Shown one piece after another: positions 21,954 through 41,599 of a stretch of DNA of 41,599 bases. Position 1 is the stretch's first letter, and every line of letters begins with the position of its first letter. This DNA is from Bacteroidales bacterium. GTDB taxonomy: Bacteria > Bacteroidota > Bacteroidia > Bacteroidales > VadinHA17. The position numbers were made by a program, and so were the translations under genes. The stretch covers positions 1-41,599 of the forward strand of contig PLMC01000121.1 of assembly GCA_003141495.1 (NCBI GenBank). Direction: 5' to 3'. The notes below the pieces were generated by a model. The model worked only from the letters and a program-made list of their open reading frames with translations. It made no database searches and was not told where the DNA came from.

Positions 21954-22534
21954 GAAAGTTGCAAATATTAGAAATTATTCATATTCAGGTATTATTAAAT
22001 TTAGTCCTTGTTTAGGTCAGTCAAAGTATAACGATAATTGTTGTAAAGTATATATTTAAGATAAAAGAAATCGATTGTTTCATATCCTGAAATATTAGGA
22101 ATTAACGCATTAAGATGTATATATATTGTAATATCAAATCAAATCAGGAATGGGAAAGCCAGACAACATAGCTATACTTAACTGATCCTGTTATAATTAA
22201 CATATATAGAAAAAAACAAATACTTAACTCTGGTTGGAAAATCCGGTCAACCTCAACCTGCTATTTAATGCCTGTTATCCCCAAAACCTGGCAAGATCAG
22301 CAATTATGCAAAATAAACTTTGATTTTCTCAAAAGACATGGATTGCCCACTATGGGGATTGATGGCTCGTTTGATTTTTTTGAATTTCAACTTTCTTTTC
22401 TCCTAGATTTAATTTAGATTTATTGTGTAATTTTATTACATACTTTGAATTGATTTTACTCAAAGTCATAATATAGCTGCGGTCAAAACAGTCCATTCAA
22501 TTTATAAATTCAAAATAAACATAAAGAGTTAATT
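21954..22534. other. Gene-free 581-bp stretch with a repeat fragment
   Basis: AT-rich, with no credible reading frame. It holds one F2-family fragment (22264-22297: TTTAATGCCTGTTATCCCC, then AAAACCTGGCAAGAT), the only copy on the left side of the window. A CTTTGA...TCAAAG half-palindrome (22443-22465) lies about 70 bp before the GH95 gene. Confidence 0.6.
22264..22297 (+). repeat. F2-family repeat fragment
   Basis: It carries TTTAATGCCTGTTATCCCC followed by AAAACCTGGCAAGAT, matching the F2 copies at 25459, 37693 and 39662. Only the central part is recognisable. Confidence 0.65.
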
Positions 22535-25299: not shown

Positions 25300-25307
25300 C
25301 GTGGTTA

Positions 25308-25390
25308 TCCCGTCAGGTTTCGAACCCGGACGACCGTTAAGAAATTGCCCTGTGGGCAATTTTAGGGAGGAGCGTGACTGCAGGGGTGGC
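25308..25390 (-). repeat. 83-nt repeat, copy 1 (possible structured RNA or tRNA-derived element)
   Basis: All 83 nt are identical to 37542-37624, while the flanks have drifted. On the minus strand it contains CCGGGTTCGAAACCTGA, which looks like a tRNA T-arm (T-loop TTCGAAA, 4 of 5 stem pairs including one G-T), here followed by CGGGATA and ACCA. The rest does not fold as a tRNA: there is no matching 5' acceptor strand and the central stem AAATTGCCC/GGGCAATTT has only a 3-nt loop. The strand is chosen from the T-arm and the adjacent terminator. Confidence 0.7.
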
Positions 25391-25458
25391 CTTCAGATCC
25401 AGAATCATTAATATATATCACAGTTATATCTTAACAAATTGAATATCAATGGTGAGCT

Positions 25459-25535
25459 ATAAAGACAAAATCATTACATTTCCATTATTTATTACCTGTT
25501 ATCCCAAAACCTTGCAAGAAATCTAGCAAGATTTT
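25459..25535 (+). repeat. F2-family repeat
   Basis: Contains AAAGACAAAATCATTACATT, then TTTATTACCTGTTATCCC and two CNTNGCAAGA units. It matches 37693-37770 and 39662-39735. It lies about 70 bp after the 83-nt repeat, as at 37.6 kb. Confidence 0.75.
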
Positions 25536-25616
25536 TATAACAAGTTAAAATCAGAAAGTACTTCTAAAGTGAGATCAGATTATTGTCCAGGCTAAAAGGC
25601 ATTAAGTTATAAGAAA

Positions 25617-25697
25617 CTAAACAACAAGATCATAACTCCGGATTTTTGTTGGCCAATTTATTCAATACAGCTATTGCCAAGACTGCTGGCTTTTCCA
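25617..25697 (+). repeat. F1-family repeat, copy A
   Basis: Carries ACAACAAGATCATAACTCCGG, a diverged GTTGGCCAATTTATTCAAT (25648 on) and CTGGCTTTTCCA (25686-25697). It stands 82 bp to the right of an F2 copy with no gene between them. Confidence 0.6.
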
Positions 25698-29847: not shown

Positions 29848-30164
29848 CCCTAGTTAACAAGAGAAAGACATATTGTAACTCATACGATCGTTAATCATTC
29901 ATAAATTTTAATATTTGAAATAATCGAACAAATGGTCTAGTGCTTTGTTTTCTTAAAACTTATAATTACGAAATGTTATTGGTAAATTAAAACCAAAACG
30001 ATACAACAGACAGCTAAGAATACCGGCGAGCATATTTTGGTATACCTCATTACTATATAAAAATTCTATTAATTCTTAAAAACAACGAGGAGTCCAGTAC
30101 CCTCTTAAAAAAACGGGGCGAAACCGAAAAGCCATACGAATAGGAAAATATTAATTCAAAAAAA
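29848..30164. other. 317-bp gap before the ABM-like gene
   Basis: Contains a small imperfect hairpin (CTAACCC...TAGTTAAC near 29847) that could end the HAB operon, and a stretch GAGGAGTCCAGTACCCTC (30089 on) with a GAGG/CCTC stem. I see no promoter consensus and no riboswitch class I recognise. Confidence 0.4.
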
Positions 30165-30434
30165 ATGGTAACAGTAATTATTTCTCATGAATGCAAAAAC
30201 TATTCAGACTGGAGAAAAGTTTTTGATGCTGATGAAGTAAATCGTTCAAAAGCAGGTTTCAAAAGTACGGGTGTATATCATTCTGTTGATAATGCAAATA
30301 AGATAACAATTATTGGCGAAGCTCCAAGCGTGGAAGCAATAAAAGGTTTTATGGCAAATCCTGCATTAAAAGAAGCAATGGAAAAAGGAGGAGTAATAGG
30401 CATGCCCGATGTTAAGATTTTAAGTAAAGTGTAA
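30165..30434 (+). CDS. Small ABM-fold (antibiotic biosynthesis monooxygenase-like) protein
   Basis: An 89-residue soluble protein: MVTVIISHECKNYSDWRKVF, then KAGFKSTGVYHSVDNANKIT, then a beta strand IIGEAPSVEAIKGFMANPAL and KEAMEKGG, ending IGMPDVKILSKV. The strand-helix-strand-strand-helix-strand order with paired strands and the DW..VFD segment are those of dimeric alpha/beta-barrel (ABM-like) proteins. These can act as cofactor-free monooxygenases or as binding proteins; no catalytic residues can be assigned. It is followed by an intrinsic terminator at 30472, so it ends its transcript. Confidence 0.7.
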   Translation: MVTVIISHECKNYSDWRKVFDADEVNRSKAGFKSTGVYHSVDNANKITIIGEAPSVEAIKGFMANPALKEAMEKGGVIGMPDVKILSKV

Positions 30435-30511: not shown

Positions 30512-30600
30512 GTTTTGTATTAGCGGTCCGATGTAAAATTCGTTCGTCTTTGACCTTTTCAAATTCACTCAAATTCCACTTAACATACCTAACTAAAGAA

Positions 30601-30672
30601 CAAGGATTTATCTTCGGGTTTGGGTGGTCAATTTATTCGGGGCAAATGTGTTCAGCGCTTCAGGCTTTTCCA
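30601..30672 (+). repeat. F1-family repeat, copy B
   Basis: TTTATCTTCGGGTTTGGGTG, then GTCAATTTATTCGGG (30626 on) and CAGGCTTTTCCA (30661-30672). It sits in the 382-bp gap 30435-30816, which also holds the terminator at 30472 and no gene. Confidence 0.65.
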
Positions 30673-31446: not shown

Positions 31447-31538
31447 GAATGAGTTTCTTGTTTGGATTAATTAAGGAAGGTGTTAGCAAACCCCGACCTC
31501 TGTACCATTCTGAACCAATTATCTTAAAATCAACAAAG

Positions 31539-32382
31539 ACCTGGCAAGAAACCTGGCAAGATAATTGGTCATTTTGCAAATAGATCGAGATATAGGGAAG
31601 CTGACATTTTGAATAAACTTTCTTCATTACAGATACTATCCTATTATTTTTCTCGTTAATTTTACCTGACTGTTTAACAGGGATTATCATTAACCATGTC
31701 TGGATGTAAATGTAACATAAGCTTAACTATTGTCCTGGTTTCACTATTTTCTATTCAGGCTTTTTCGCAACAAATCAATTTCCGCGATAGCCTTACTGAG
31801 CATAATTCTCAAAAAGTAAATTTAAAGCCCAAGCTGTATTATTCGGTGGGAAGTACCTTTATAATTGTTCCTCGTTTGGGAACTGTCACTGGTTTTACAC
31901 TCTCCCCTTTTTTATCCATTCCGTTGTCTCCAAAGTTATCGATTGATGGCGGAATTATTGCCGGACGCTTTTATTCTGCATTATGGAATTTTAATCCTGA
32001 AGGTGCGATAAATGGGGCATTTAACGAATTATCTGTATACGGATCAGTTAGCTATCATATTAATTCTCAGTTGGCTGTATATGGTACCGGGATAAAACAA
32101 CTTACAGGCACTTCTCCATTTTATTTTCTCCCCAAAAGCAGTTATACCGTTGGATCCACTTTTAATTTCGGAAATTCTTCAATAGGTGTTACTTTGCAGA
32201 TGTCAAAATGGAATGATATCTTCAGCCCCTTGCCATTCAATAGCTCTCAGGGATTTTATTCTCCATATGAGCAAAGACCAGAACATTGACCACATTTGGC
32301 CGATGAGAAAAATCTGTGCTTACATATTCCAACATCAAAAATTTAACACCGACGAAAGGTGGTCAATGACGCTGGCTTTTCC
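31539..32382 (+). repeat. Repeat-bracketed gene module, copy 1
   Basis: The left end is ACCTGGCAAGAAACCTGGCA (F2 core), and the right end is an F1 repeat (copy C) with an internal deletion, finishing CTGGCTTTTCC (32372-32382). Between them lies the gene at 31696. The whole unit is repeated at 39712-40580: left end to ATG is 157 bp in both, with only scattered substitutions. Upstream, 31478-31500 (GGTGTTAGCAAACCCCGACC) resembles 37411-37432 next to another F1 copy. Confidence 0.75.
31696..32289 (+). CDS. Secreted beta-rich protein, copy 1 of a duplicated gene
   Basis: A 197-residue protein with a signal peptide (MSGCKCNISLTIVLVSLFSI..AFSQ). The mature sequence is beta-rich with alternating strands (LYYSVGSTFIIVPRLGTVTG, FTLSPFLSIPLSPKLSIDGG, ELSVYGSVSYHINSQL, SIGVTLQMSKW), consistent with a small outer-membrane barrel. 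I do not recognise the family. The gene at 39869 encodes a protein about 91% identical. A one-base length difference near the end makes this copy stop early as ...EQRPEH, whereas the other continues to ...KLTTFGR. Both the promoter region and the flanking repeats are shared with the second copy. Confidence 0.78.
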   Translation: MSGCKCNISLTIVLVSLFSIQAFSQQINFRDSLTEHNSQKVNLKPKLYYSVGSTFIIVPRLGTVTGFTLSPFLSIPLSPKLSIDGGIIAGRFYSALWNFNPEGAINGAFNELSVYGSVSYHINSQLAVYGTGIKQLTGTSPFYFLPKSSYTVGSTFNFGNSSIGVTLQMSKWNDIFSPLPFNSSQGFYSPYEQRPEH

Positions 32383-32447
32383 AAACGGGTAAAAGATCCA
32401 TCCTTACATGAACTCAACAAAATTTGGTCTAATTCCCCTTAACATAC

Positions 32448-32504
32448 ATTATTAAACAACAAAAATGTAACTCCGGCTTTTGGTGGTCAGTTTGTTCCGG
32501 CCAA
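32448..32504 (+). repeat. F1-family repeat, copy D
   Basis: ATTAAACAACAAAAATGTAA, CTCCGGCTTTTGGTGGTCAG and TTTGTTCCGGCCAA (core 32481-32500), one of the best-preserved F1 copies. It lies about 65 bp to the right of copy C (32335-32382), so two F1 ends are in tandem in the 372-bp gap 32290-32661. Confidence 0.7.
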
Positions 32505-32661
32505 AGGTAGCTACATTAAGGATAAAGCATAAATTGAATATTATTGTATTAAACCAATCAATACTTGTGTTTTTTAGAAAACAAATTCGTTCGAGATATA
32601 AATCCTTTGCATTTGTATTGTCTGATATCTTTACTTTAAAATATAATATTTTTATTCGGGC

Positions 32662-33459
32662 ATGAAAACAGCAATTATTACTGGAGGTACAAGGGGCATT
32701 GGTGCCGGACTTGTAAGGGATTTCCTACGATGTGGATGGGATGTCGCATACTCAGGAACAACCAAGGAATCAATAGAAAAATCATTATTATCGCTTTCAG
32801 AACAATTTGATAAAGAAAACTATATCGCATTGAAATGTGATGTAACAAATGAAAAGGATCTGATTAATCTATGGAAAAGTACCTTGAAAAGTTTTGGAAG
32901 GGTCGACATTTGGGTAAATAATGCAGGAGTTACTAATGAACAGGCTCCATTTTTTCAGATTTCGCCTGATGAATTCATGAAAATAATTGATATAAATATT
33001 AAGGGATTAATGCTCTCAACTTATATTGCTTATAACAGGATGTTACTTCAGGGATATGGTGCAATATACAATATGGAAGGTCTCGGAAGTGATGGGAGAG
33101 TAATTTCAGGTATGGCACCTTATGGAACATCAAAACGGGCAGTCAGATATTTTACTGATGCATTTGCAAAAGAGGTTAATAACGGTCCTGTGATTGTAGG
33201 CACTATCAGTCCTGGTATGGTCATGACCGATATGACTCTTGCGCCATTAAGGAAAGATCCAACTAAAAACAAGCAGCTTATCAGGATATATAATATTCTT
33301 GCAAATGATCCCGATACAGTAACTCCCTTCCTGGTAAGCGAGATGATAAAAAACAAAAAAAACGGAGCGAAGATATCATGGCTTTCATCATGGAAAGTAA
33401 TGGAAAGATTTATATCCGCACCTTTCACTAAGAGAGATTTAGTCGGCAAATATATATAA
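32662..33459 (+). CDS. Short-chain dehydrogenase/reductase (NYC1/NOL-like)
   Basis: A 265-residue classical-type SDR: cofactor motif TGGTRGIG (residues 7-14), NNAG (86-89), and YGTSK with Tyr154/Lys158. The usual catalytic Ser would be near position 143 (GLGSDGR). The EGLGSDGR stretch before YGTSK and the long C-terminal helix recall the chlorophyll b reductase-like (NYC1/NOL) branch, which has bacterial relatives of unknown substrate. It is cytosolic and NADP-preferring by the presence of Arg11 in the glycine loop. It is a single gene with F1 repeats on both sides. Confidence 0.85.
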   Translation: MKTAIITGGTRGIGAGLVRDFLRCGWDVAYSGTTKESIEKSLLSLSEQFDKENYIALKCDVTNEKDLINLWKSTLKSFGRVDIWVNNAGVTNEQAPFFQISPDEFMKIIDINIKGLMLSTYIAYNRMLLQGYGAIYNMEGLGSDGRVISGMAPYGTSKRAVRYFTDAFAKEVNNGPVIVGTISPGMVMTDMTLAPLRKDPTKNKQLIRIYNILANDPDTVTPFLVSEMIKNKKNGAKISWLSSWKVMERFISAPFTKRDLVGKYI

Positions 33460-33510
33460 TTGTGACATCCTATAAAATTGTAAAAACCGTACAGTCTGAC
33501 CCCATTTGAT

Positions 33511-33617
33511 CGGTATGATTTCACCGTACATTCAATTCAAAACAACAATTTTTTAACTCCGGGGGTGGGTGGTCAATATCATCAGGCTAAAAGTGACTTG
33601 GGTCATCGGTTTTTCCA
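33511..33617 (+). repeat. F1-family repeat, copy E
   Basis: Starts with TCGGTATGATTTCACCGTAC, then AACAACAATTTTTTAACTCC, GGTGGTCAATATCATCAGG (33569-33587), GGGTCATCGG and TTTTTCCAA (33610 on). The doubled GGTCAATAT/GGTCATCGG pattern resembles the multiple terminal repeats of IS21-type elements. Confidence 0.65.
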
Positions 33618-33670
33618 ATTAATTAAGTTACTTGTTGTGTTTTCGGTTTAGAATTATACTTTAAACCTTG

Positions 33671-34594
33671 TCAAGATGCGATCAGTTTTTCAAGATACTC
33701 TTTTGTTTTTAATAGATATTCGCTTGTGCTTTCAGCAAGTTCATATTCAATAATTATACCACCTTTGAAGTTCAATTTTTTAAGAGATGAAATTACCGCT
33801 GGAAAATCAACATCTCCCATGGGGATAGGAACCTCTTTGCCAAGCTCATATGGATTTGTGGGGTATTTACCATCTTTCGCATGTAGTGACCTGACATACT
33901 TTCCCAGAACCTTTAGCCCGTCTACAGGATTTGATTTCCCATACATTATCAGATTGGCTGTATCATAATTCACAAATAGGTTTCCAGTTCCTATATCTAA
34001 GATTGCCCTTAGCAGCGTAACAGGCGTTTCCTGTCCGGTTTCAAAATAGATGTCAACGCCGTTTTTTAATGCATATTCCCCGAGTAGTTTCATCGTTTCA
34101 ACAAACTCACCATAAAGAACATCTTTCGGATTTTCCGGAATAAAACCAAAATGAGTTTGAATTGCAAGAATGCCTGCTGCTTTGCAAAAATTCATACCAT
34201 TTTTAAGGCGTTCCATACGTGCTGCTCTGTTTTCACGAGGCACAAGACCAATTGTTGACGGACCCTCGGTAAAGGTATACTTGTCTACACCAGGGCCTCC
34301 ACAAATTAGTGACGTAGCTTTAATCTTGTATTTTTCAAGCGTTGCAGTAAGCTTTTTCGCCAGCTCGGGAGAATAAATTCTGATATTAAGCTGACATACA
34401 GGGAAGCCAAGATCCCTGACAATATTCAGATCTTTTTCCGGGTTGTCAGCAGAAGCGATCACGCCAACTTGAATATCATTTAATATGCCTCCTGATTTTA
34501 CATAGGTCCCGGTGTCAAAAGAAGAAAGAACCCCGGGAATCCCTGAAATGAGTGCCGTGGTATAAATGAATTTCCTTCTGCTGATAGGTGTCAT
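33671..34594 (-). CDS. Tat-exported sugar phosphate isomerase/epimerase (TIM barrel)
   Basis: A 307-residue protein with a twin-arginine signal (SRRKFIYTTALISG) and a xylose-isomerase-like TIM barrel. The metal-binding acids and histidine of the family appear in order: Glu in YFETGQET, Asp in NYDTANLIMYG, His in SLHAKDG, and Glu in IIIEYELAE. The GDVDFPAVISSL segment is also typical. Members isomerise or epimerise sugars (as in inositol or hexulose pathways); substrate unknown, and Tat export suggests a folded metalloenzyme in the periplasm. The gene stands alone on the minus strand. Confidence 0.85.
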   Translation of the reverse strand: MTPISRRKFIYTTALISGIPGVLSSFDTGTYVKSGGILNDIQVGVIASADNPEKDLNIVRDLGFPVCQLNIRIYSPELAKKLTATLEKYKIKATSLICGGPGVDKYTFTEGPSTIGLVPRENRAARMERLKNGMNFCKAAGILAIQTHFGFIPENPKDVLYGEFVETMKLLGEYALKNGVDIYFETGQETPVTLLRAILDIGTGNLFVNYDTANLIMYGKSNPVDGLKVLGKYVRSLHAKDGKYPTNPYELGKEVPIPMGDVDFPAVISSLKKLNFKGGIIIEYELAESTSEYLLKTKEYLEKLIAS

Positions 34595-34703
34595 GGAATA
34601 TAGGTTTTTAATTGGTTGTTTATTAAATGGCCTTATCCTTTAATGATTCATTAAAATTAAAGATTTTTTCTTATGCAAAAACAGAACATCTTGACCAAAA
34701 CAA

Positions 34704-34803
34704 AAACCGGTCTAATTTCACCGGACATTCAAAACAAAACAACAAACATATGACTCCTGCAATGGGTAGTCAATTTATTCCGGACAACTTTGGACAAGGT
34801 CTT
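34704..34803 (+). repeat. F1-family repeat, copy F
   Basis: Begins AAAACCGGTCTAATTTCACC, then ACAACAAACATATGACTCCT and AGTCAATTTATTCCGGAC (34768 on), then TGGACAAGGTC. It fills most of the 223-bp gap before the lipoprotein gene. The initial CCGGTCTAATTTCACCGG portion is shared with copy E. Confidence 0.65.
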
Positions 34804-34817
34804 TTACGATTTATGCT

Positions 34818-35108
34818 TTAGTCATACCATCTTCTTCTTGTTGCATAACCACTACCACTACCGCCAAGAAGAAGAACAACACCCAAAATAAATCCCAACC
34901 AATATAACGAACCTGTATTATGTTCAGCATACAATCCAATATGTGCTCCTAATAATTTTGCAATCAATACGAAAGGGGAAATGAACCCGTGAACAATACC
35001 GTAAAGAAAACCATATTCCTCCTTGGTCATACCAACAGGAGCACAGGAAGTAATAAAAAACAGAACCAGCAATAATAATAATCCAATAAATATTCTTTTT
35101 GTTTTCAT
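34818..35108 (-). CDS. Small membrane lipoprotein
   Basis: A 96-residue protein with a hydrophobic signal segment and lipobox ITSC (Cys22). A widely shared pattern follows: EEYGFLYGIVHGFISPF, an apolar stretch (about residues 41-55), then the soluble YAEHNTGSLYW, and a C-terminal apolar LGFILGVVLLLGGSGSG before the basic end RRRW. Two membrane-associated helices are likely. The same EE..G...GI.HGF..P pattern is known from many uncharacterised bacterial proteins (from memory), so it is conserved, but the function is unknown. F1 copy F lies directly downstream of its stop. Confidence 0.7.
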   Translation of the reverse strand: MKTKRIFIGLLLLLVLFFITSCAPVGMTKEEYGFLYGIVHGFISPFVLIAKLLGAHIGLYAEHNTGSLYWLGFILGVVLLLGGSGSGYATRRRWYD

Positions 35109-35915
35109 ATAAATTAATTTTAAATGTTTTTACTCATAAAGTGATATAAATTTGAAGGATATGAAAAATGTCAAAATATTTCCATTCAGAGTTTTATTAA
35201 AATTATACTGGATAACCTTAAAGAGATCCAGGTATAATACAAAAAGAGGAAACTATTAAAGAAAACTATCTATTAATTGTTTATAAAGGTTGGCATCTTT
35301 ATACTAAAAAATATTACATAACTTTAGAAAAAGTTTACATAATTCACATTTCCAGGAACAATATGTTAAAACTGTAAATCAATTACATAGAGCACATCAA
35401 ATGCCTCATTCTTAGTCATAGTCATTTATATTAAATCTTGTTTTTAACCCTTTAATTTTGACAGAATTGTTTAAAGAAAGAGAACTAAAAAGATGGATTA
35501 AGAAAAGAATTATATTAAGTACCACCGACCATTTCATCATGTAAAATCCGTCCTTATTCGACCACTTCAAAATCCGGTCTTGTAACACTTATAAAATAAC
35601 AAGTGTTAGATAATACAGGAAATAAATTATATTATTCATAAATACTCCAAAACGTTGCGCCCTTTGTGCTTAAGATTTTATAAAATAGCCTATTCAAAAC
35701 CTTCTTCTTCCGGCAGCATCGGAATAATGGTCACCATAAATCATAATATGTGTGAATTATATAAATCTGATAAGGAATTGTGTAAAAATACCCTGCACAA
35801 AAGGAATTATCTTTATATAGTTGGAATTTATAAGGGTGCAGGTTAATTTTAGTAGGTTATTATTGATGGTTTAAACATGGGGGTGCTGAATATAAATCAT
35901 TAAAACTGTAAGAAG
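35109..35915. other. Gene-free 807-bp stretch
   Basis: Strongly AT-rich. It holds one clean hairpin, TAACACTT (35583-35590) with AAGTGTTA (35601-35608), preceded by CCGTCCTTATTCGACC and AATCCGGTCTTG, which resemble the outer end of F1 copies E and F. A 63-codon frame at 35655 lacks any protein-like features and is not called. Confidence 0.45.
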
Positions 35916-36083
35916 ATGCCACTAAAAAAGGGAAAGTCAAAGAAAGTGATCAACTCAAACATAGAGGAGTTACTTCACAGTTACAAGGAGGATGGAACAA
36001 TCGGAACAAGCCACCCAAAGTCGATGAAACTGGCCCAGAAACAAGCTGTTGCTATAGCATACTCAAAGGCAAAAGAGAAATAG
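35916..36083 (+). CDS. DUF6496 small basic protein
   Basis: A 55-residue basic protein: MPLKKGKSKKVINSNIEELL, then GTIGTSHPKSMKLAQKQAVA, ending AIAYSKAKEK. The start MPLKKGKSKK, the TIGTS stretch and the QAVAIA motif identify the DUF6496 family, a group of short, Lys-rich proteins seen in bacteria and phages. The ATG at 35916 fits with a purine-rich AAGAAG just before it. Function unknown; its charge suggests nucleic-acid association. It is 162 bp upstream of the lipid kinase gene and could share its transcript. Confidence 0.8.
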   Translation: MPLKKGKSKKVINSNIEELLHSYKEDGTIGTSHPKSMKLAQKQAVAIAYSKAKEK

Positions 36084-36245
36084 CAACAACTGAAAAAACG
36101 GAATTCCAGCCAAAATACATAATAATAATTTTTTTATAATTTAAAGAAATACAGTGCATGCCATAGTGCAAAAGCTTGACGTCTTGAACACTGATATGAA
36201 TTACTGCAATATATTTCTTTAACCATGAAAGCATTTTATTAACAG

Positions 36246-37214
36246 ATGAAAGCCATTCTAATAATAAATCCTTCTTCCGGCAAGATGAAAAGGGAGATGC
36301 CCCCTATACTAAGGTGGACTTTAAAAAAATTAGAAAGAAGATTATCGGGACTATTCAAGCCTAAAATAACTGAAGATGACATTATCGAAGAAGTAAAAAA
36401 CAAGTGTGATGAAGCGAAGATAAAATTAGAGATAGAATTCACAAAATATCCAAAACATGCGACAAAACTAGCAGAAGCTGCAAAGGATAAATACGATTTA
36501 ATTATTGCGGCAGGTGGAGATGGAACAATAAATGAAGTAATTAATGGGATGGCTGAATCAAAAGCCACACTGGTAATAATTCCTTTTGGCAGTACGAATG
36601 TTTTAGCATGTGAACTAGGTGTACCTAATGATCCAAAAAAGGCAGCAGAATTAATTACAAAGGGCAAAAAGATAAAAATGGATTTAGGTTATGCAAAAAC
36701 AAGTAAGGAATCTAGATATTTTTCAATGATGTTAGATGTGGGTCCTTTTGCTCAGGTTATAAAAGACACAACTCCGGAATTTAAGAAAAGATGGGGAAAA
36801 TTTGCATATCCGTTTAGGCTGATAAAACTTCTTTTCAGATATAAATGGCATAAGATTTATGTCAAACATAAGGTAGAATCGACAGGATATTTTATAATCA
36901 TGGCAAATATTAAATATTATGGCGGGGAATATGAAATAGCTGATAAAGCAAACATAAGAGACGGCCTGCTGGATCTGGTGATAATAAATAGAAAAAATCC
37001 ATGGGATATAATTATGTTAATCTTTTCATTTACAAGTGGGAAATTAAACAAATTTTTAAGAAAAGAATATTTTCAATTAAAAGAAGCAGAAATTTATTCG
37101 CATCATAATATGCAGATTCAGGTTGATGGCGAAGTATTAGGAATGGCCCCGGTAAGAGTTGAAATTATACCAAAAGCGTTAAATGTAATTGCAGCTTCTC
37201 AAAATGTCATCTGA
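36246..37214 (+). CDS. Diacylglycerol/lipid kinase family protein (DgkB/YegS-like)
   Basis: A 322-residue soluble kinase. Motifs: INPSSGK (residues 7-13) in the first strand, GGDGTINEVINGM (90-102) for nucleotide binding, PFGSTNVLACELG (113-125), and the C-terminal domain with SMMLDVGPFAQVI, IMANIKYYGGEYEIA and QIQVDGEVLGMAPV, whose Asp/Glu complete the catalytic site. The family phosphorylates diacylglycerol, sphingosine-like or other lipids using ATP. The GSTNVLA form is the more YegS/BmrU-like variant of GTGND. Length and domain order are complete. Lys-rich, AT-rich codon use matches the surrounding genes. Confidence 0.88.
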   Translation: MKAILIINPSSGKMKREMPPILRWTLKKLERRLSGLFKPKITEDDIIEEVKNKCDEAKIKLEIEFTKYPKHATKLAEAAKDKYDLIIAAGGDGTINEVINGMAESKATLVIIPFGSTNVLACELGVPNDPKKAAELITKGKKIKMDLGYAKTSKESRYFSMMLDVGPFAQVIKDTTPEFKKRWGKFAYPFRLIKLLFRYKWHKIYVKHKVESTGYFIIMANIKYYGGEYEIADKANIRDGLLDLVIINRKNPWDIIMLIFSFTSGKLNKFLRKEYFQLKEAEIYSHHNMQIQVDGEVLGMAPVRVEIIPKALNVIAASQNVI

Positions 37215-37316
37215 TGAAAAGAACAATAAAAGCGTTTTTCAAAATTGTTGGCTCTGCTGCAGAAGCCGGGAATCTTGACTACATTTAAGCAGGCCAGATT
37301 ATTCTTATAATATATA

Positions 37317-37396
37317 ATTAAACAACAATTATTTAACTCAGGCTTTTGATGGTCAATTTATTGCGGCCATTGTTGGCAAGGTCACTGACTTTTCCA
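37317..37396 (+). repeat. F1-family repeat, copy G
   Basis: AACAACAATTATTTAACTCA, TGGTCAATTTATTGCGGCC (37350 on), GGCAAGGTCACTG and ACTTTTCCA (37388-37396). It is followed by GGTGTTAGTCAAACCGACCT, also seen at 31478. Confidence 0.7.
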
Positions 37397-37467
37397 ATAT
37401 TAAAAGAATGGTGTTAGTCAAACCGACCTTTGTTTAATGTTAAGAAGGTTGTTATAAAATCGCTTAA

Positions 37468-37490
37468 AAAACCTAGCAAGAACCTGGCAA
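37468..37490 (+). repeat. F2-family partial copy
   Basis: AACCTAGCAAGAACCTGGCA only: the two iterated ACCTGGCAAG-type units without the upstream F2 segment. It lies 52 bp before the second 83-nt repeat. Confidence 0.5.
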
Positions 37491-37541
37491 CAACAAATAA
37501 ACACTTACAAAAATAATTATAAGTGATTTATTATCTTGTTG

Positions 37542-37624
37542 TCCCGTCAGGTTTCGAACCCGGACGACCGTTAAGAAATTGCCCTGTGGGCAATTTTAGG
37601 GAGGAGCGTGACTGCAGGGGTGGC
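37542..37624 (-). repeat. 83-nt repeat, copy 2
   Basis: Identical base for base to 25308-25390, whereas flanking bases differ except for scattered similarity on the right side leading into an F2 copy. On the minus strand the T-arm-like part continues as CGGGACA, A, then CAA, so the CCA seen in copy 1 is lost. A weaker stem (CACTTA/TAAGTG, 37502-37525) stands where copy 1 has its terminator. Confidence 0.7.
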
Positions 37625-37692
37625 TTTCTGATTCAGAAGAATACGAGAATATAATAATCTTACCTTAACACATTGATTATTAAACTTATTTT

Positions 37693-37770
37693 ATAAAGAC
37701 AAAATCATTACATTTCCATTATTTAATACCTGTTATCCCCAAAACCTAGCAAGAAACCTAGAAAGATTTT
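37693..37770 (+). repeat. F2-family repeat
   Basis: AAAGACAAAATCATTACATT, then TTTAATACCTGTTATCCCC and AAAACCTAGCAAGAAACCTA. It is nearly the same as 25459-25535 and sits at the same distance from the 83-nt repeat. Confidence 0.75.
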
Positions 37771-37818
37771 TTTGTGTGTCTGGAAAAAATCCTTTTCCAG
37801 AAGGGATGACCCATTCCT

Positions 37819-37956
37819 TCACTTTTCATTAAAAAGTGAAGGAATTTCATTTTCGTTCAAAACATGGTTATATATTCTGATATCATCTATTTTCCCATTG
37901 ACTGAGGATCCAAAGTATTTTTCAATACCAAATCTTCCAAATGCAATTGCGTCACA
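37819..37956 (-). pseudogene. C-terminal remnant of a LamG/concanavalin-like domain
   Basis: The minus-strand frame 37956-37819 (45 residues and stop) reads AIAFGRFGIEKYFGSSVNGK then IDDIRIYNHVLNENEI and LFNEK. This is the end of a LamG-type carbohydrate-binding domain: the G-x-IDD-(I/V)-R-I-Y-N motif and the L-x-x-x-EI tail are diagnostic. An in-frame stop at 37957-37959 truncates it on the N-terminal side, so the rest of the protein is gone. A perfect 11-bp hairpin (37816-37826 with 37832-37842) overlaps its end. It is probably a relic of a secreted glycan-binding enzyme lost at the F2 repeat boundary. Confidence 0.75.
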
Positions 37957-38081
37957 TCAAGAGTATTTTTAAATGAAGAATGTTCTATCAACAAAAAGAA
38001 AAAAGAACCCAAAAAGAAATTTTTAACATCATCATAATAAATGAAAAACAAACTTAACTTTGATTAAATTCTGCCCTGGAA

Positions 38082-38441
38082 ATGGGGTACATTATAGTAC
38101 AGGATATTAAAACGGGAATGTGGTGCCAGGTGGTTGATAAACCCTATGAACCAGGGAACTGGAACGAAACCTCAGGAACCGGAATGTATATCTATTTGCT
38201 TAAAAAATCAATTAAAAAAGGGTTTCTTCCCGTTGACGTATATTCACCGGTAATAAATTCAGCTTATGCCGGTATTATTAAAAAAGCAAAAATCAGTGAG
38301 AAAGGATTAATTGATATTTACGATTGCAGTAGCATCGGTATTCAGGATAATTACAAGGCTTACATTTCACAGCCAAAAGAAATAAACTCCTATGCTCCTA
38401 TTGGTTCGTTCATATTAGGGACATCATCAATGGAATTTTAA
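38082..38441 (+). pseudogene. C-terminal fragment of a GH105/GH88-type unsaturated glycuronyl hydrolase
   Basis: A 119-residue open frame with the GH105 C-terminal pattern: MWCQVVDKPYEPGNWNETSG, GMYIYLLKKSIKKGFLPVDV, YAGIIKKA, and the late DCSSIG and PIGSFILG parts. Intact enzymes are about 360-380 residues; the N-terminal half with the catalytic Asp and the signal peptide is missing, and upstream DNA shows no trace of it. Such enzymes remove unsaturated uronic acid from pectin or ulvan fragments, so this is most likely a dead remnant, although an ATG and an open frame remain. The nearby LamG remnant, which points the other way, supports decay of a carbohydrate locus. Confidence 0.75.
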
Positions 38442-38485
38442 AAGAATATATCTATATAGTTCATAATGATTAAAATGCAACTCAC

Positions 38486-39487
38486 ATGAAAGTACTATTC
38501 ATTGGCGGAACAGGTAACATCAGTAGCCCTGTAAGCAAATTAGCCCTTGAAAAAGGAGTGGATTTATATCACCTTAACAGGGGCAACAGACCTTCAGTTG
38601 AAGGAGTGAAAACTCTAGTAGCCGACATCAATAACAAAGAGCATACAAAGAAGCTGCTTGCTGATCATAAATGGGATGCCGTGGTAAACTGGATTGCATT
38701 TACAACTGAAGATATATTACGCGATGTTGATCTGTTCGAAGGAAATACCGGACAGTATATTTTTATCAGTTCAGCATCGGCTTATCAAAAGCCTCCTGTC
38801 AGCTACATTATTACAGAATCAACGCCGCTGAAAAATCCCTACTGGGATTATTCAAGAAATAAAATAGCGTGTGAAGATCTGCTGACGGCCCTGTACCGTG
38901 AACGGAATTTCCCGGCTACCATTGTACGTCCATCACATACTTACAAAACGATAATACCAGTTACATTAGGTGGGGGGGAAGAATATACAGTAGTCGACAG
39001 GATAAGGAAAGGTTTGCCAATTGTGGTTCAGGGAGATGGAACTTCTTTATGGACAATCACTCATTCCGATGATTTTGCAAAAGGATTTTCAGGCCTTCTT
39101 GGTAACCAGCACGCAATAGGTGAATCTTTTCAAATTACATCAGATGAAGTCCTTTCATGGAATCAGATTTATCAGACGCTGGCTCATGCAGCCGGTTGTG
39201 AGGCAAAAATAGTTCATATTTCTTCTGATTATATTTGCGACTATGCAGACAGGCATAATTATCCTTCGGAGCGTGGAAATTTATTGGGAGATAAAGCTCA
39301 CTGTGCTATTTTCGACAATTCAAAGATTAAACGGTTTGTACCGGATTATGTTGCCACTATTCCGTTTTCAGAAGGGATAAAACAAACCCTTAAATGGTTT
39401 GAATCTGAACCTTCCAGAATGATAGTTAAGGAAGAAACAAACCGTTTCCTGGATGAGCTTATTGAAACCTTTGTCAGGAAAGATTGA
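38486..39487 (+). CDS. NAD-dependent epimerase/dehydratase (extended SDR)
   Basis: A 333-residue cytosolic extended SDR. The cofactor loop is GGTGNIS (7-13), and the active site is Tyr122-x-x-x-Lys126 in WDYSRNKIACE with Ser near 95-97 (ISSASAY). Downstream are IVRPSHTYK, the typical GDGTSLWTITHSDDFAKGF segment (as in isoflavone-reductase/epimerase-like proteins), and SFQITSDEVLSWNQIYQTLA. The substrate is probably a sugar nucleotide or similar; nothing points to one. Directly upstream is the GH105 remnant (44 bp), which may share its promoter region. Length is normal and no frameshift is seen. Confidence 0.87.
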   Translation: MKVLFIGGTGNISSPVSKLALEKGVDLYHLNRGNRPSVEGVKTLVADINNKEHTKKLLADHKWDAVVNWIAFTTEDILRDVDLFEGNTGQYIFISSASAYQKPPVSYIITESTPLKNPYWDYSRNKIACEDLLTALYRERNFPATIVRPSHTYKTIIPVTLGGGEEYTVVDRIRKGLPIVVQGDGTSLWTITHSDDFAKGFSGLLGNQHAIGESFQITSDEVLSWNQIYQTLAHAAGCEAKIVHISSDYICDYADRHNYPSERGNLLGDKAHCAIFDNSKIKRFVPDYVATIPFSEGIKQTLKWFESEPSRMIVKEETNRFLDELIETFVRKD

Positions 39488-39556
39488 ATTAAACCGATAG
39501 TATTTGAAATCCAATATTAAATAGTCTCAGTAAAAACCTTATTACATGAAACTGCC

Positions 39557-39646
39557 ATGATTAAAAAACTTCTATTTTTCCTGAGTGCCGCTATACTTTC
39601 AGTCTGTGCATTTTCTCAAAATCCTGTTGCTGAAAATGGTCAATAA
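39557..39646 (+). pseudogene. Orphan signal peptide of a truncated secreted protein
   Basis: A 29-codon frame, MIKKLLFFLSAAILSVCAFS plus QNPVAENGQ, which is a perfect signal peptide with cleavage near the Q, then a stop. The mature protein is absent, and an F2 repeat begins 15 bp further on at 39662, so deletion or insertion at the repeat may have removed it. QNPVAENGQ would fit the start of a mature secreted enzyme, but the family cannot be determined. Confidence 0.6.
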
Positions 39647-39661
39647 GCCTGGCTTCTGCAA

Positions 39662-39735
39662 TAAAGACAATATCATTACATTTCCATTATTTAATACCTG
39701 TTATCCCCAAAACCTGGCAAGAAACCTGGCAAGAT
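39662..39735 (+). repeat. F2-family repeat, left part of module copy 2
   Basis: TAAAGACAATATCATTACAT, TTTAATACCTGTTATCCCC and ACCTGGCAAGAAACCTGGCA (39712 on). This is the only place where the full F2 sequence runs directly into the gene-bearing module; the copy at 31539 keeps just the ACCTGGCAAG units. Confidence 0.75.
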
Positions 39736-40580
39736 AATTGGTCAAATTGAAAATAGATCAAGATATAGAGAAGCTGACATATTGAATAAACTTTCTTCAT
39801 TACAGATACTATCCTATTATTTTTCTCGTTAATTTTACCTGACTGTTTAACAGGGATTATCATTAACCATGTCTGGATGTAAATGTAACATAAGCTTAAC
39901 TATTGTCCTGGTTTCACTATTTTCTATTCAGGCTTTTTCACAACAAATCAATTACCGCGATAGCCTTGCTGAGTATAATTCTCAAAAAGTAAATTTAAAG
40001 CCCAAGCTGTATTATTCGGTGGGAAGTACCTTTATAATTGTTCCTCGTTTGGGAACTGTCACTGGTTTTACATTATCTCCTTTTTTATCAATTCCTTTGT
40101 CTCCAAAGTTGTCAGTTGATGGCGGAATTATTGCCGGACGCTTTTATTCTGCATTATGGAATTTTAATTCTGAAGGTGCAATAAATGGGGCATTTAACGA
40201 ATTATCTGTATACGGATCAGCTAGCTATCATATTAATTCTCAGTTTACTGTGTATGGTACCGGGATAAAACAACTTACAGGAACTTCTCCATTTTATTCT
40301 CTCCCAAAAAGCAGTTATTCCATTGGATCCACTTATAATTTCGGAAATTTTTCAATAGGTGTTACTTTGCAGAGGTCAAAATGGAATGATATCCTCAGCC
40401 CCTTTCCATTCAATGGCTCTCAGGGATTTTATTCTCCATATGAGCAAAAACCGGGCAAATTGACCACATTTGGCCGATGAGAAAACACTTTGCTTACATA
40501 TTTCAACATTAAACATTTAACTCCTTCACTTGGTGATCAGTTTATTATGGCCTATTATGGTTAAGGCCACTGGCTTTTCA
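39712..40580 (+). repeat. Repeat-bracketed gene module, copy 2
   Basis: Same order as 31539-32382: F2 core, 157 bp leader, gene, GACCACATTTGGCCGATGAG, then F1 (copy H, core 40531-40552, CTGGCTTTTCA at 40570). The F1 part is full length here, whereas copy 1 has lost about 25 bp inside it. Confidence 0.75.
39869..40480 (+). CDS. Secreted beta-rich protein, copy 2 of a duplicated gene
   Basis: A 203-residue protein about 91% identical to that at 31696, with the same signal peptide (identical through AFSQQIN). Differences are scattered (for example Phe to Tyr after QIN, Ser versus Pro in NFNSEG, Arg versus Met in LQRSKW), and synonymous changes are also common, so the duplication is not very recent. 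The extra C-terminal KLTTFGR comes from a one-base length difference near 40458. It is a beta-rich, probably outer-membrane protein of unknown family. A 190-bp gap with F1 copy H separates it from the aldo/keto reductase. Confidence 0.78.
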   Translation: MSGCKCNISLTIVLVSLFSIQAFSQQINYRDSLAEYNSQKVNLKPKLYYSVGSTFIIVPRLGTVTGFTLSPFLSIPLSPKLSVDGGIIAGRFYSALWNFNSEGAINGAFNELSVYGSASYHINSQFTVYGTGIKQLTGTSPFYSLPKSSYSIGSTYNFGNFSIGVTLQRSKWNDILSPFPFNGSQGFYSPYEQKPGKLTTFGR

Positions 40581-40672: not shown

Positions 40673-41599
40673 ATGGAGAATATGAATAGTTTAAGTCATT
40701 TGGGACGCACCGGTATCATGGTGACCCCAATAGGGCTTGGTTGTTGGCAATTCAGCAAACAAAAAAACATGGCAGGGAAATATTGGCCCGCACTTGAAGA
40801 TGACCTCATTAACAAGGTCATTTCCCTTTCCCTTGAAGGAGGAATTAACTGGTTTGATACAGCAGAAATATATGGTAACGGGGCTTCAGAAAAAGCTCTT
40901 TCAAAAGGCCTGCAGGCAGCTGGGAAAAAACCGGGTGAGGTTATTATAGCCACAAAATGGTGGCCTATGTTTCGTTTCGCTTCAAATATCCGCAAGACCA
41001 TTGACGATCGGATCAGGGCATTGGCGCCATATTCTATAGACCTGTACCAGGTTCACCAGCCGTGGAGCTTCTCTAGCGAAAAGAGTGAAATGACGGTTAT
41101 GGCTGAAATGTTTGATAAAAAGCTTATCAAATGCATTGGGGTAAGCAATTTTTCGGCGAAGGAGATGAAGCACTCTTGGGAGACACTCAATAAAGCGGGA
41201 ATACCGCTTGCATCAAACCAGGTCAAGTACAATCTCCTCGACCGCAAGATAGAATCGAATGGCGTAATGGACCTTGCAAAGAAACTAGGTATTTCCATCA
41301 TTGCATACTCACCGCTTGCACAGGGCCTGGTGACTGGTAAGTTTCATGATAATCCGGAACTGCTCAAAAACATCGGACTAAGAAGGTACAGCTCGCAGTT
41401 CAAACCGGAAGGACTCGAGAAAAGCCGGAAGGTGATAATGCTGGTAAAGGAACTTGCCTTTAAGTACAATGTGACACCATCACAGGTGGCACTCAATTGG
41501 CTCATCAATTATCATAGTGATACAGTTGTTGCAATCCCTGGGGCAACAAAGGAAATCCATGTAAAGGAGAACACAGGTTCGATGTCGTTCAGGCTTTCC
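40673..41599 (+). CDS. Aldo/keto reductase, 3'-partial
   Basis: The frame is open from ATG 40673 (a second ATG at 40682 is possible) to the last base, 309 codons, and the stop lies beyond the window. The AKR catalytic tetrad is in place: Asp62 (NWFDTAEIYG), Tyr67, Lys95 (IATKWW) and His128 (YQVHQPW). Then follow VSNFSAKEM, NQVKYNLLDRK (cofactor-side strand), AYSPLAQGLVTGK, and near the end AIPGATKEIHVKEN, the NADPH-binding region. Members reduce aldehydes or ketones with NADPH; the TGK..H and long middle loop are those of the general bacterial AKR family (YdbC/Tas-like). F1 copy H lies upstream. Confidence 0.9.
   Translation, partial: MENMNSLSHLGRTGIMVTPIGLGCWQFSKQKNMAGKYWPALEDDLINKVISLSLEGGINWFDTAEIYGNGASEKALSKGLQAAGKKPGEVIIATKWWPMFRFASNIRKTIDDRIRALAPYSIDLYQVHQPWSFSSEKSEMTVMAEMFDKKLIKCIGVSNFSAKEMKHSWETLNKAGIPLASNQVKYNLLDRKIESNGVMDLAKKLGISIIAYSPLAQGLVTGKFHDNPELLKNIGLRRYSSQFKPEGLEKSRKVIMLVKELAFKYNVTPSQVALNWLINYHSDTVVAIPGATKEIHVKENTGSMSFRLS

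Follow-up and report, generated by a model that had tools for sequence, protein, structure and literature searches.

Mobile insertion cassettes and genes flanked by MITEs move by transposition of their outer ends; blaPER-1 is one gene flanked by MITEs (PMC3934969). Homologous recombination between repeats (portable homology), of the kind that dispersed IS copies allow, leaves breakpoints anywhere in the repeat. The ends of IS21 elements consist of two repeats each with a terminal CA, and a 5-bp target duplication has been described for an IS21-family element (PMC10122671). The repeat examined here, F1, is 139 bp long and resembles IS21-family MITEs in being short and non-coding, in its TG...CA ends and in carrying the repeated end motifs of the istAB elements of its genus, but it differs from them in that no 5-bp target duplication was seen, in its co-oriented runs and in that its copies bound exchanged genes. 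Like integron cassettes and CALIN arrays, F1 units often comprise one gene plus one site, share a common polarity and recur in new contexts across species; unlike them, they lack the attC R' box, no integron integrase was found, their crossovers are spread and their genes lie in both orientations. As in mobile insertion cassettes and MITE-flanked genes, passenger genes lie between transposase-less IS-type ends, yet F1 units start and stop inside the repeat. Breakpoints anywhere within F1 recall portable homology, although, unlike dispersed IS copies, F1 is a 139-bp, ~67%-identical mini-repeat, and the exchanges are mostly gene-sized and range across a genus. No published description of such F1-type arrays was found in the open-licence PMC literature.

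The window, the whole stretch of DNA analysed, is a contig of 41,599 nucleotides (G000:C130) from a Bacteroidales genome of 3.5 Mb in 135 contigs (~90% complete). A profile search located nine copies of F1 in it, all on the + strand (Table 1). All named F1 carriers are metagenome-assembled genomes, the named relatives being Bacteroidales from fen, permafrost and lake sediment. The F1 consensus starts with TGCAAAAGCCGG and ends with GGCTTTTCCA, and each arm contains several copies of a motif of the transposase-site type (TTGACCAC/GCCGG). Its two ends agree with those of istAB (IS21-family) elements from this genus (TGGAAAA..CGG..TTGACCACC..GCCGG), and F1 is therefore built like a non-autonomous IS21-type mini-element (MITE). 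It carries both IS21-type ends itself, a complete mini-element architecture, and it combines terminal inverted repeats and istAB-type end motifs with a high copy number and no transposase, as expected of a MITE. A search with a profile derived from the copies in the window detected F1 in 36 of 40 sampled genomes of the genus, at 1 to 75 matches each. An order-wide draw of 198 genomes gave matches above 80 bits only in the window's own genome and in G042 and weaker ones in 11 further genomes, and F1 was absent from the plasmid and phage records searched. F1-like mini-elements of the same architecture and a different sequence were observed in other families of the order (L312-L316 in G042, L327 in G163 and L324-L326 in G111); a genome-wide pattern scan gave many scattered matches, of which those in Anaerophaga, Clostridiales and the like were dropped, as the F1 profile did not confirm them.

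The sequence-only reading had centred on a secreted-protein gene that is present twice, with a common leader and a common 3' repeat, and this duplication is borne out. The direct repeat D1 (31536-31835 versus 39709-40008) is 96% identical, and an end-to-end alignment of the copies, ~93% matching at the DNA level, begins inside F2 (31536/39709), spans the leader and the gene, and stops where F1 ends (...CTGGCTTTTCnA); the proteins are 90% identical. The sequence GACCACATTTGGCCGATGAG is common to the 3' ends of both gene copies, and the protein of copy b terminates in ...KLTTFGR* with its stop codon inside F1, so that F1 is fused to the 3' end of the gene. The F1 that closes copy a is internally deleted and is followed directly by a second one. 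It had also been claimed that the duplication ends at the repeats rather than at the gene ends, which agrees with the alignment and would be the case because segments were exchanged at the repeats. F2 does lie to the left of both copies, as had been stated, in full at copy b and with only its last part (31536-31560) at copy a. The gene-free F2 plus F1 reported at 25459-25697 is present. The gene product is predicted to be a small secreted beta-barrel protein: the AlphaFold2 model of copy b has an N-terminal hydrophobic helix followed by 7 or 8 predicted beta strands (mean pLDDT 60.5, moderate confidence), and a Pfam search with this protein returned no family. On the reading favoured below, which we hold as a whole with slightly more than even confidence, the gene, of which the window has two copies that each run into F1 at the 3' end, would be an F1-type exchanged unit.

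Table 1. Features of the window; the profile search and repeat comparison yielded nine F1 and five F2 copies, two of the latter partial.
Feature	Positions	Strand	Remarks
F1, left part only	22152..22235	+	border between conserved chromosome and variable region; G035:C3 homology ends inside
F2, partial	22262..22296	+	
F2	25459..25533	+	followed by F1 at 25573-25697, no gene between
F1, 'empty' pair with F2	25573..25697	+	58 bits
F1	30532..30672	+	94 bits
Shared leader, copy a	31536..31695	+	starts in last part of F2
OMP-like gene, copy a	31696..32289	+	197 aa
F1 with internal deletion, 3' end of copy a	32272..32381	+	alignment and profile
F1, second in tandem	32392..32513	+	83 bits
Short-chain dehydrogenase gene between two F1	32662..33459	+	
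F1 downstream of short-chain dehydrogenase gene	33479..33617	+	99 bits
Xylose-isomerase-like TIM barrel gene between two F1	33671..34594	-	opposite strand
F1	34674..34807	+	88 bits
Diacylglycerol-kinase-like gene between two F1	36246..37214	+	
F1 downstream of diacylglycerol-kinase-like gene	37258..37396	+	105 bits
F2	37693..37767	+	
F2, left of copy b	39661..39735	+	
Shared leader, copy b	39709..39868	+	repeat comparison
OMP-like gene, copy b	39869..40480	+	203 aa; stop codon within F1
F1, 3' end of copy b	40444..40580	+	101 bits
Aldo/keto reductase gene	40673..41599	+	runs off window

To locate the limits of shared DNA, the flanks of 179 F1 copies were compared. Only the upstream side was shared in 64 pair entries and only the downstream side in 42 pairs, in both cases often flush with F1, while both sides were shared in 6 pairs, 4 of them neighbouring copies on one contig (not every pair represents an independent event). 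Two F1 copies taken at random agree at only ~67% of positions. Among upstream-sharing pairs identity was high over F1 positions 1-80 and then fell to background, and among downstream-sharing pairs it rose from about position 90-100; as judged from these alignments, positions 1-80 travel with the preceding gene and those from about 90-100 with the following gene. Within contigs chosen for carrying F1, the homology blocks between genomes had 150 internal ends, of which 19 fell in F1 on both contigs, compared with a mean of 1.5 and a maximum of 6 in 300 permutations in which F1 was moved to random intergenic spots. One such end is anchored in core DNA: a match of 90% between G035:C3 and the window at 21.8-22.24 kb takes in F1 positions 1-86 and breaks off there, with the OMP-like gene beyond the break in G035 and a GH95 gene in the window. 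The breakpoint intervals of different pairs are mutually exclusive (16-30, 82-83, 100-105 and 125-129), about half of the estimates lie near positions 80-90, and the densest cluster sits between the two most conserved blocks of F1. Under a simple breakpoint model a single breakpoint common to 15 pairs was rejected (likelihood loss of 52-159 versus a simulated mean of 15-16 and maximum of 31), and the rejection held with within-F1 identity assumed as low as 85%.

Complete F1-flanked units were found in different contexts in L048/L050, L130/L156 and L128/L142 and as two copies within L117, and in both G035 and G032 the aldo/keto reductase gene seen at the end of the window is preceded by another F1 and another upstream gene. 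Segments bounded by F1 were also more similar between genomes than core DNA, for which the DNA around dnaA served as reference: G006 and G032 share such segments at 95.6-96.6% identity (core, 83.6%), G027 and G032 share one at 95.7% (core, 87.1%), and those of G026 are 93% identical to G006/G032 (core, 77-78%). These comparisons point to an exchange of whole genes, both within a species and from one species to another, at joins that lie inside F1. Mechanically called ORFs between F1 copies occur in both orientations, and no recombinase was present among the 25 commonest families of 99 such ORFs. Defence cargo was considered and set aside, given scattered single matches only.

We favour, at somewhat better than even probability, the reading of F1 as an IS21-type mini-element that acts as a portable recombination site through which genes are swapped. 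An IS21 transposase would first have spread F1; the DNA between two copies, often one gene, would then be swapped within and between species through recombination inside F1, presumably homologous and of the RecA type, so that each exchanged unit would carry the right part of the preceding F1 and the left part of the following F1. The spread of breakpoints favours homologous recombination, since one common breakpoint was rejected and the intervals are mutually exclusive. The low identity of random F1 pairs is poor for RecA, though the two conserved blocks flank the commonest breakpoints, and the cluster at 80-90 could mark a preferred position that gene conversion has since blurred. A dedicated integron-like system, whose recombinase would excise and insert cassettes at an F1 core at about positions 80-92, would suit that cluster and the core-anchored break at 86, as well as the co-oriented runs (97 neighbours of the same versus 14 of opposite polarity) with a median spacing of ~1.6 kb and usually one or few genes per interval, the tolerance of both gene orientations, the shared units in different contexts and the strong, imperfect hairpin into which the consensus folds (z -5.8). 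We nevertheless regard it as unlikely: besides the rejection of a common breakpoint under the simple model and the want of a recombinase among the common inter-F1 families, most single F1 copies fold no better than shuffles, the attC R' box GTTRRRY is found in fewer F1 copies (11 of 179) than shuffled ones (20.6), and the integron integrase (TIGR02249) was above cut-off in none of 36 genomes of the genus, comprising 35 relatives and the window's own, G000, at ~90% completeness. An integron-type recombinase linked to F1 was also sought in recombinase-centred regions and rejected, F1 being nearby in only 1 of 20. The comparisons document, gene by gene, a shuffling that spans species of a single genus, in which a transposon-end mini-repeat forms the joint and for which no integron integrase was detected. 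Should the recombination be homologous, a mini-element is enough to provide a lineage with integron-like gene exchange, and no dedicated enzyme is needed; if an enzyme takes part, there would be a second type of cassette system. The latter, a Bacteroidales cassette-capture system independent of integron integrases, with an IS21-end-derived site, a dedicated enzyme and a genus-wide pool of single-gene cassettes, seems to us doubtful. A true integron integrase (TIGR02249, 367 bits) was observed in a genome of another family (G042:C50:52308-53159, L317), with no F1 near.

The remaining explanations are less probable still. F1 could be a passive intergenic marker, with rearrangements of other cause and with F1 polarity and gene order following replication direction, and across 74 F1-bearing contigs polarity indeed tracks GC skew (rho 0.40, p 4e-4; signs agree on 48 of 70 contigs), so that co-orientation alone is no proof of cassette insertion and replication direction may account for part of it. 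The breakpoint enrichment persists, however, against F1 permuted among intergenic positions, and we give a purely passive role little credence. Composite transposition, in which an IS21 transposase moves a gene together with its flanking F1 copies, would explain why F1 ends match IS21 ends, but it fails because the exchanged units start and stop inside F1 and not at the outer ends, and it is very unlikely. Nor was istB detected, beyond DnaA-type matches, in G000 or in the F1-rich G032 and G035, and target-site duplications, which the sequence-only reading had proposed to look for, did not appear: no perfect 4-9 bp duplication flanks any of 133 F1 copies. Four autonomous istAB/IS21 copies with visible flanks also had no obvious target duplication by eye; this test therefore cannot confirm transposition and is silent on the first spread of F1. 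The empty sites suggested alongside were likewise not encountered among the F1-bearing contigs compared or at two tested loci, and flanks are rarely conserved. Chimeric assembly or mis-binned metagenome contigs might mimic shuffling, given that every named carrier genome was assembled from a metagenome, several of them in a single fen study, and that a 6.7-kb segment is 99.6% identical between L141 (G006:C70) and L151 (G011:C14), whose genome cores are 71.7% identical; for this segment, either the transfer was very recent or a contig is mis-binned. As a general account, artefact is highly improbable, since F1 copies are too different to collapse in an assembly graph, the shared units are 93-97% and not 100% identical, the 95.7% unit is common to a Chersky and a fen genome, and L130 contains syntenic DNA of 85% identity in addition to that unit. 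The least probable reading, scarcely credible to us, is the original one, in which F2 and F1 terminate a single non-autonomous element that carries the gene as cargo. The order F2-gene-F1 does occur twice in the window, F2 precedes the OMP-like gene in G032 too, and polarity is shared, but F1 is itself two-ended and as a rule occurs without F2, F1-gene-F1 units without F2 contradict it, and in G006 a reversed F1 takes the place of F2 before the gene.

F2 is a separate, less common repeat of the genus, found in 10 of 60 sampled genomes, the window's own included. The expected F2...F1 pairs around varied cargo did not materialise as a fixed pair, and the common order that had been noted survives as shared polarity with the nearest F1 in 17 of 18 F2 copies. 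What stands of the proposed mobile cassette is that repeat-bounded gene units are mobile; they are not F2...F1 elements, F1 bounding most of them on both sides. Most F2 copies are preceded by a reverse-strand sequence that resembles the 3' half of a tRNA (TGTCCCGTCAGGTTTCGAACC...TTCTGATCCAGAA; for example, window 25304-25509 and 37538-37743), which neither ARAGORN nor Rfam called, and F2 was likewise not called as a tRNA or Rfam family. A DUF805 cis-regulatory RNA (RF03081, 76.9 bits) lies at 30082-30150 on the + strand, immediately before a small ORF (30165-30434). Adjoining F2, the + strand at 38082-38441 encodes the C-terminal third of a GH88 glycoside hydrolase, and since it matches only profile positions 241-348 of 352, it is probably a gene remnant.
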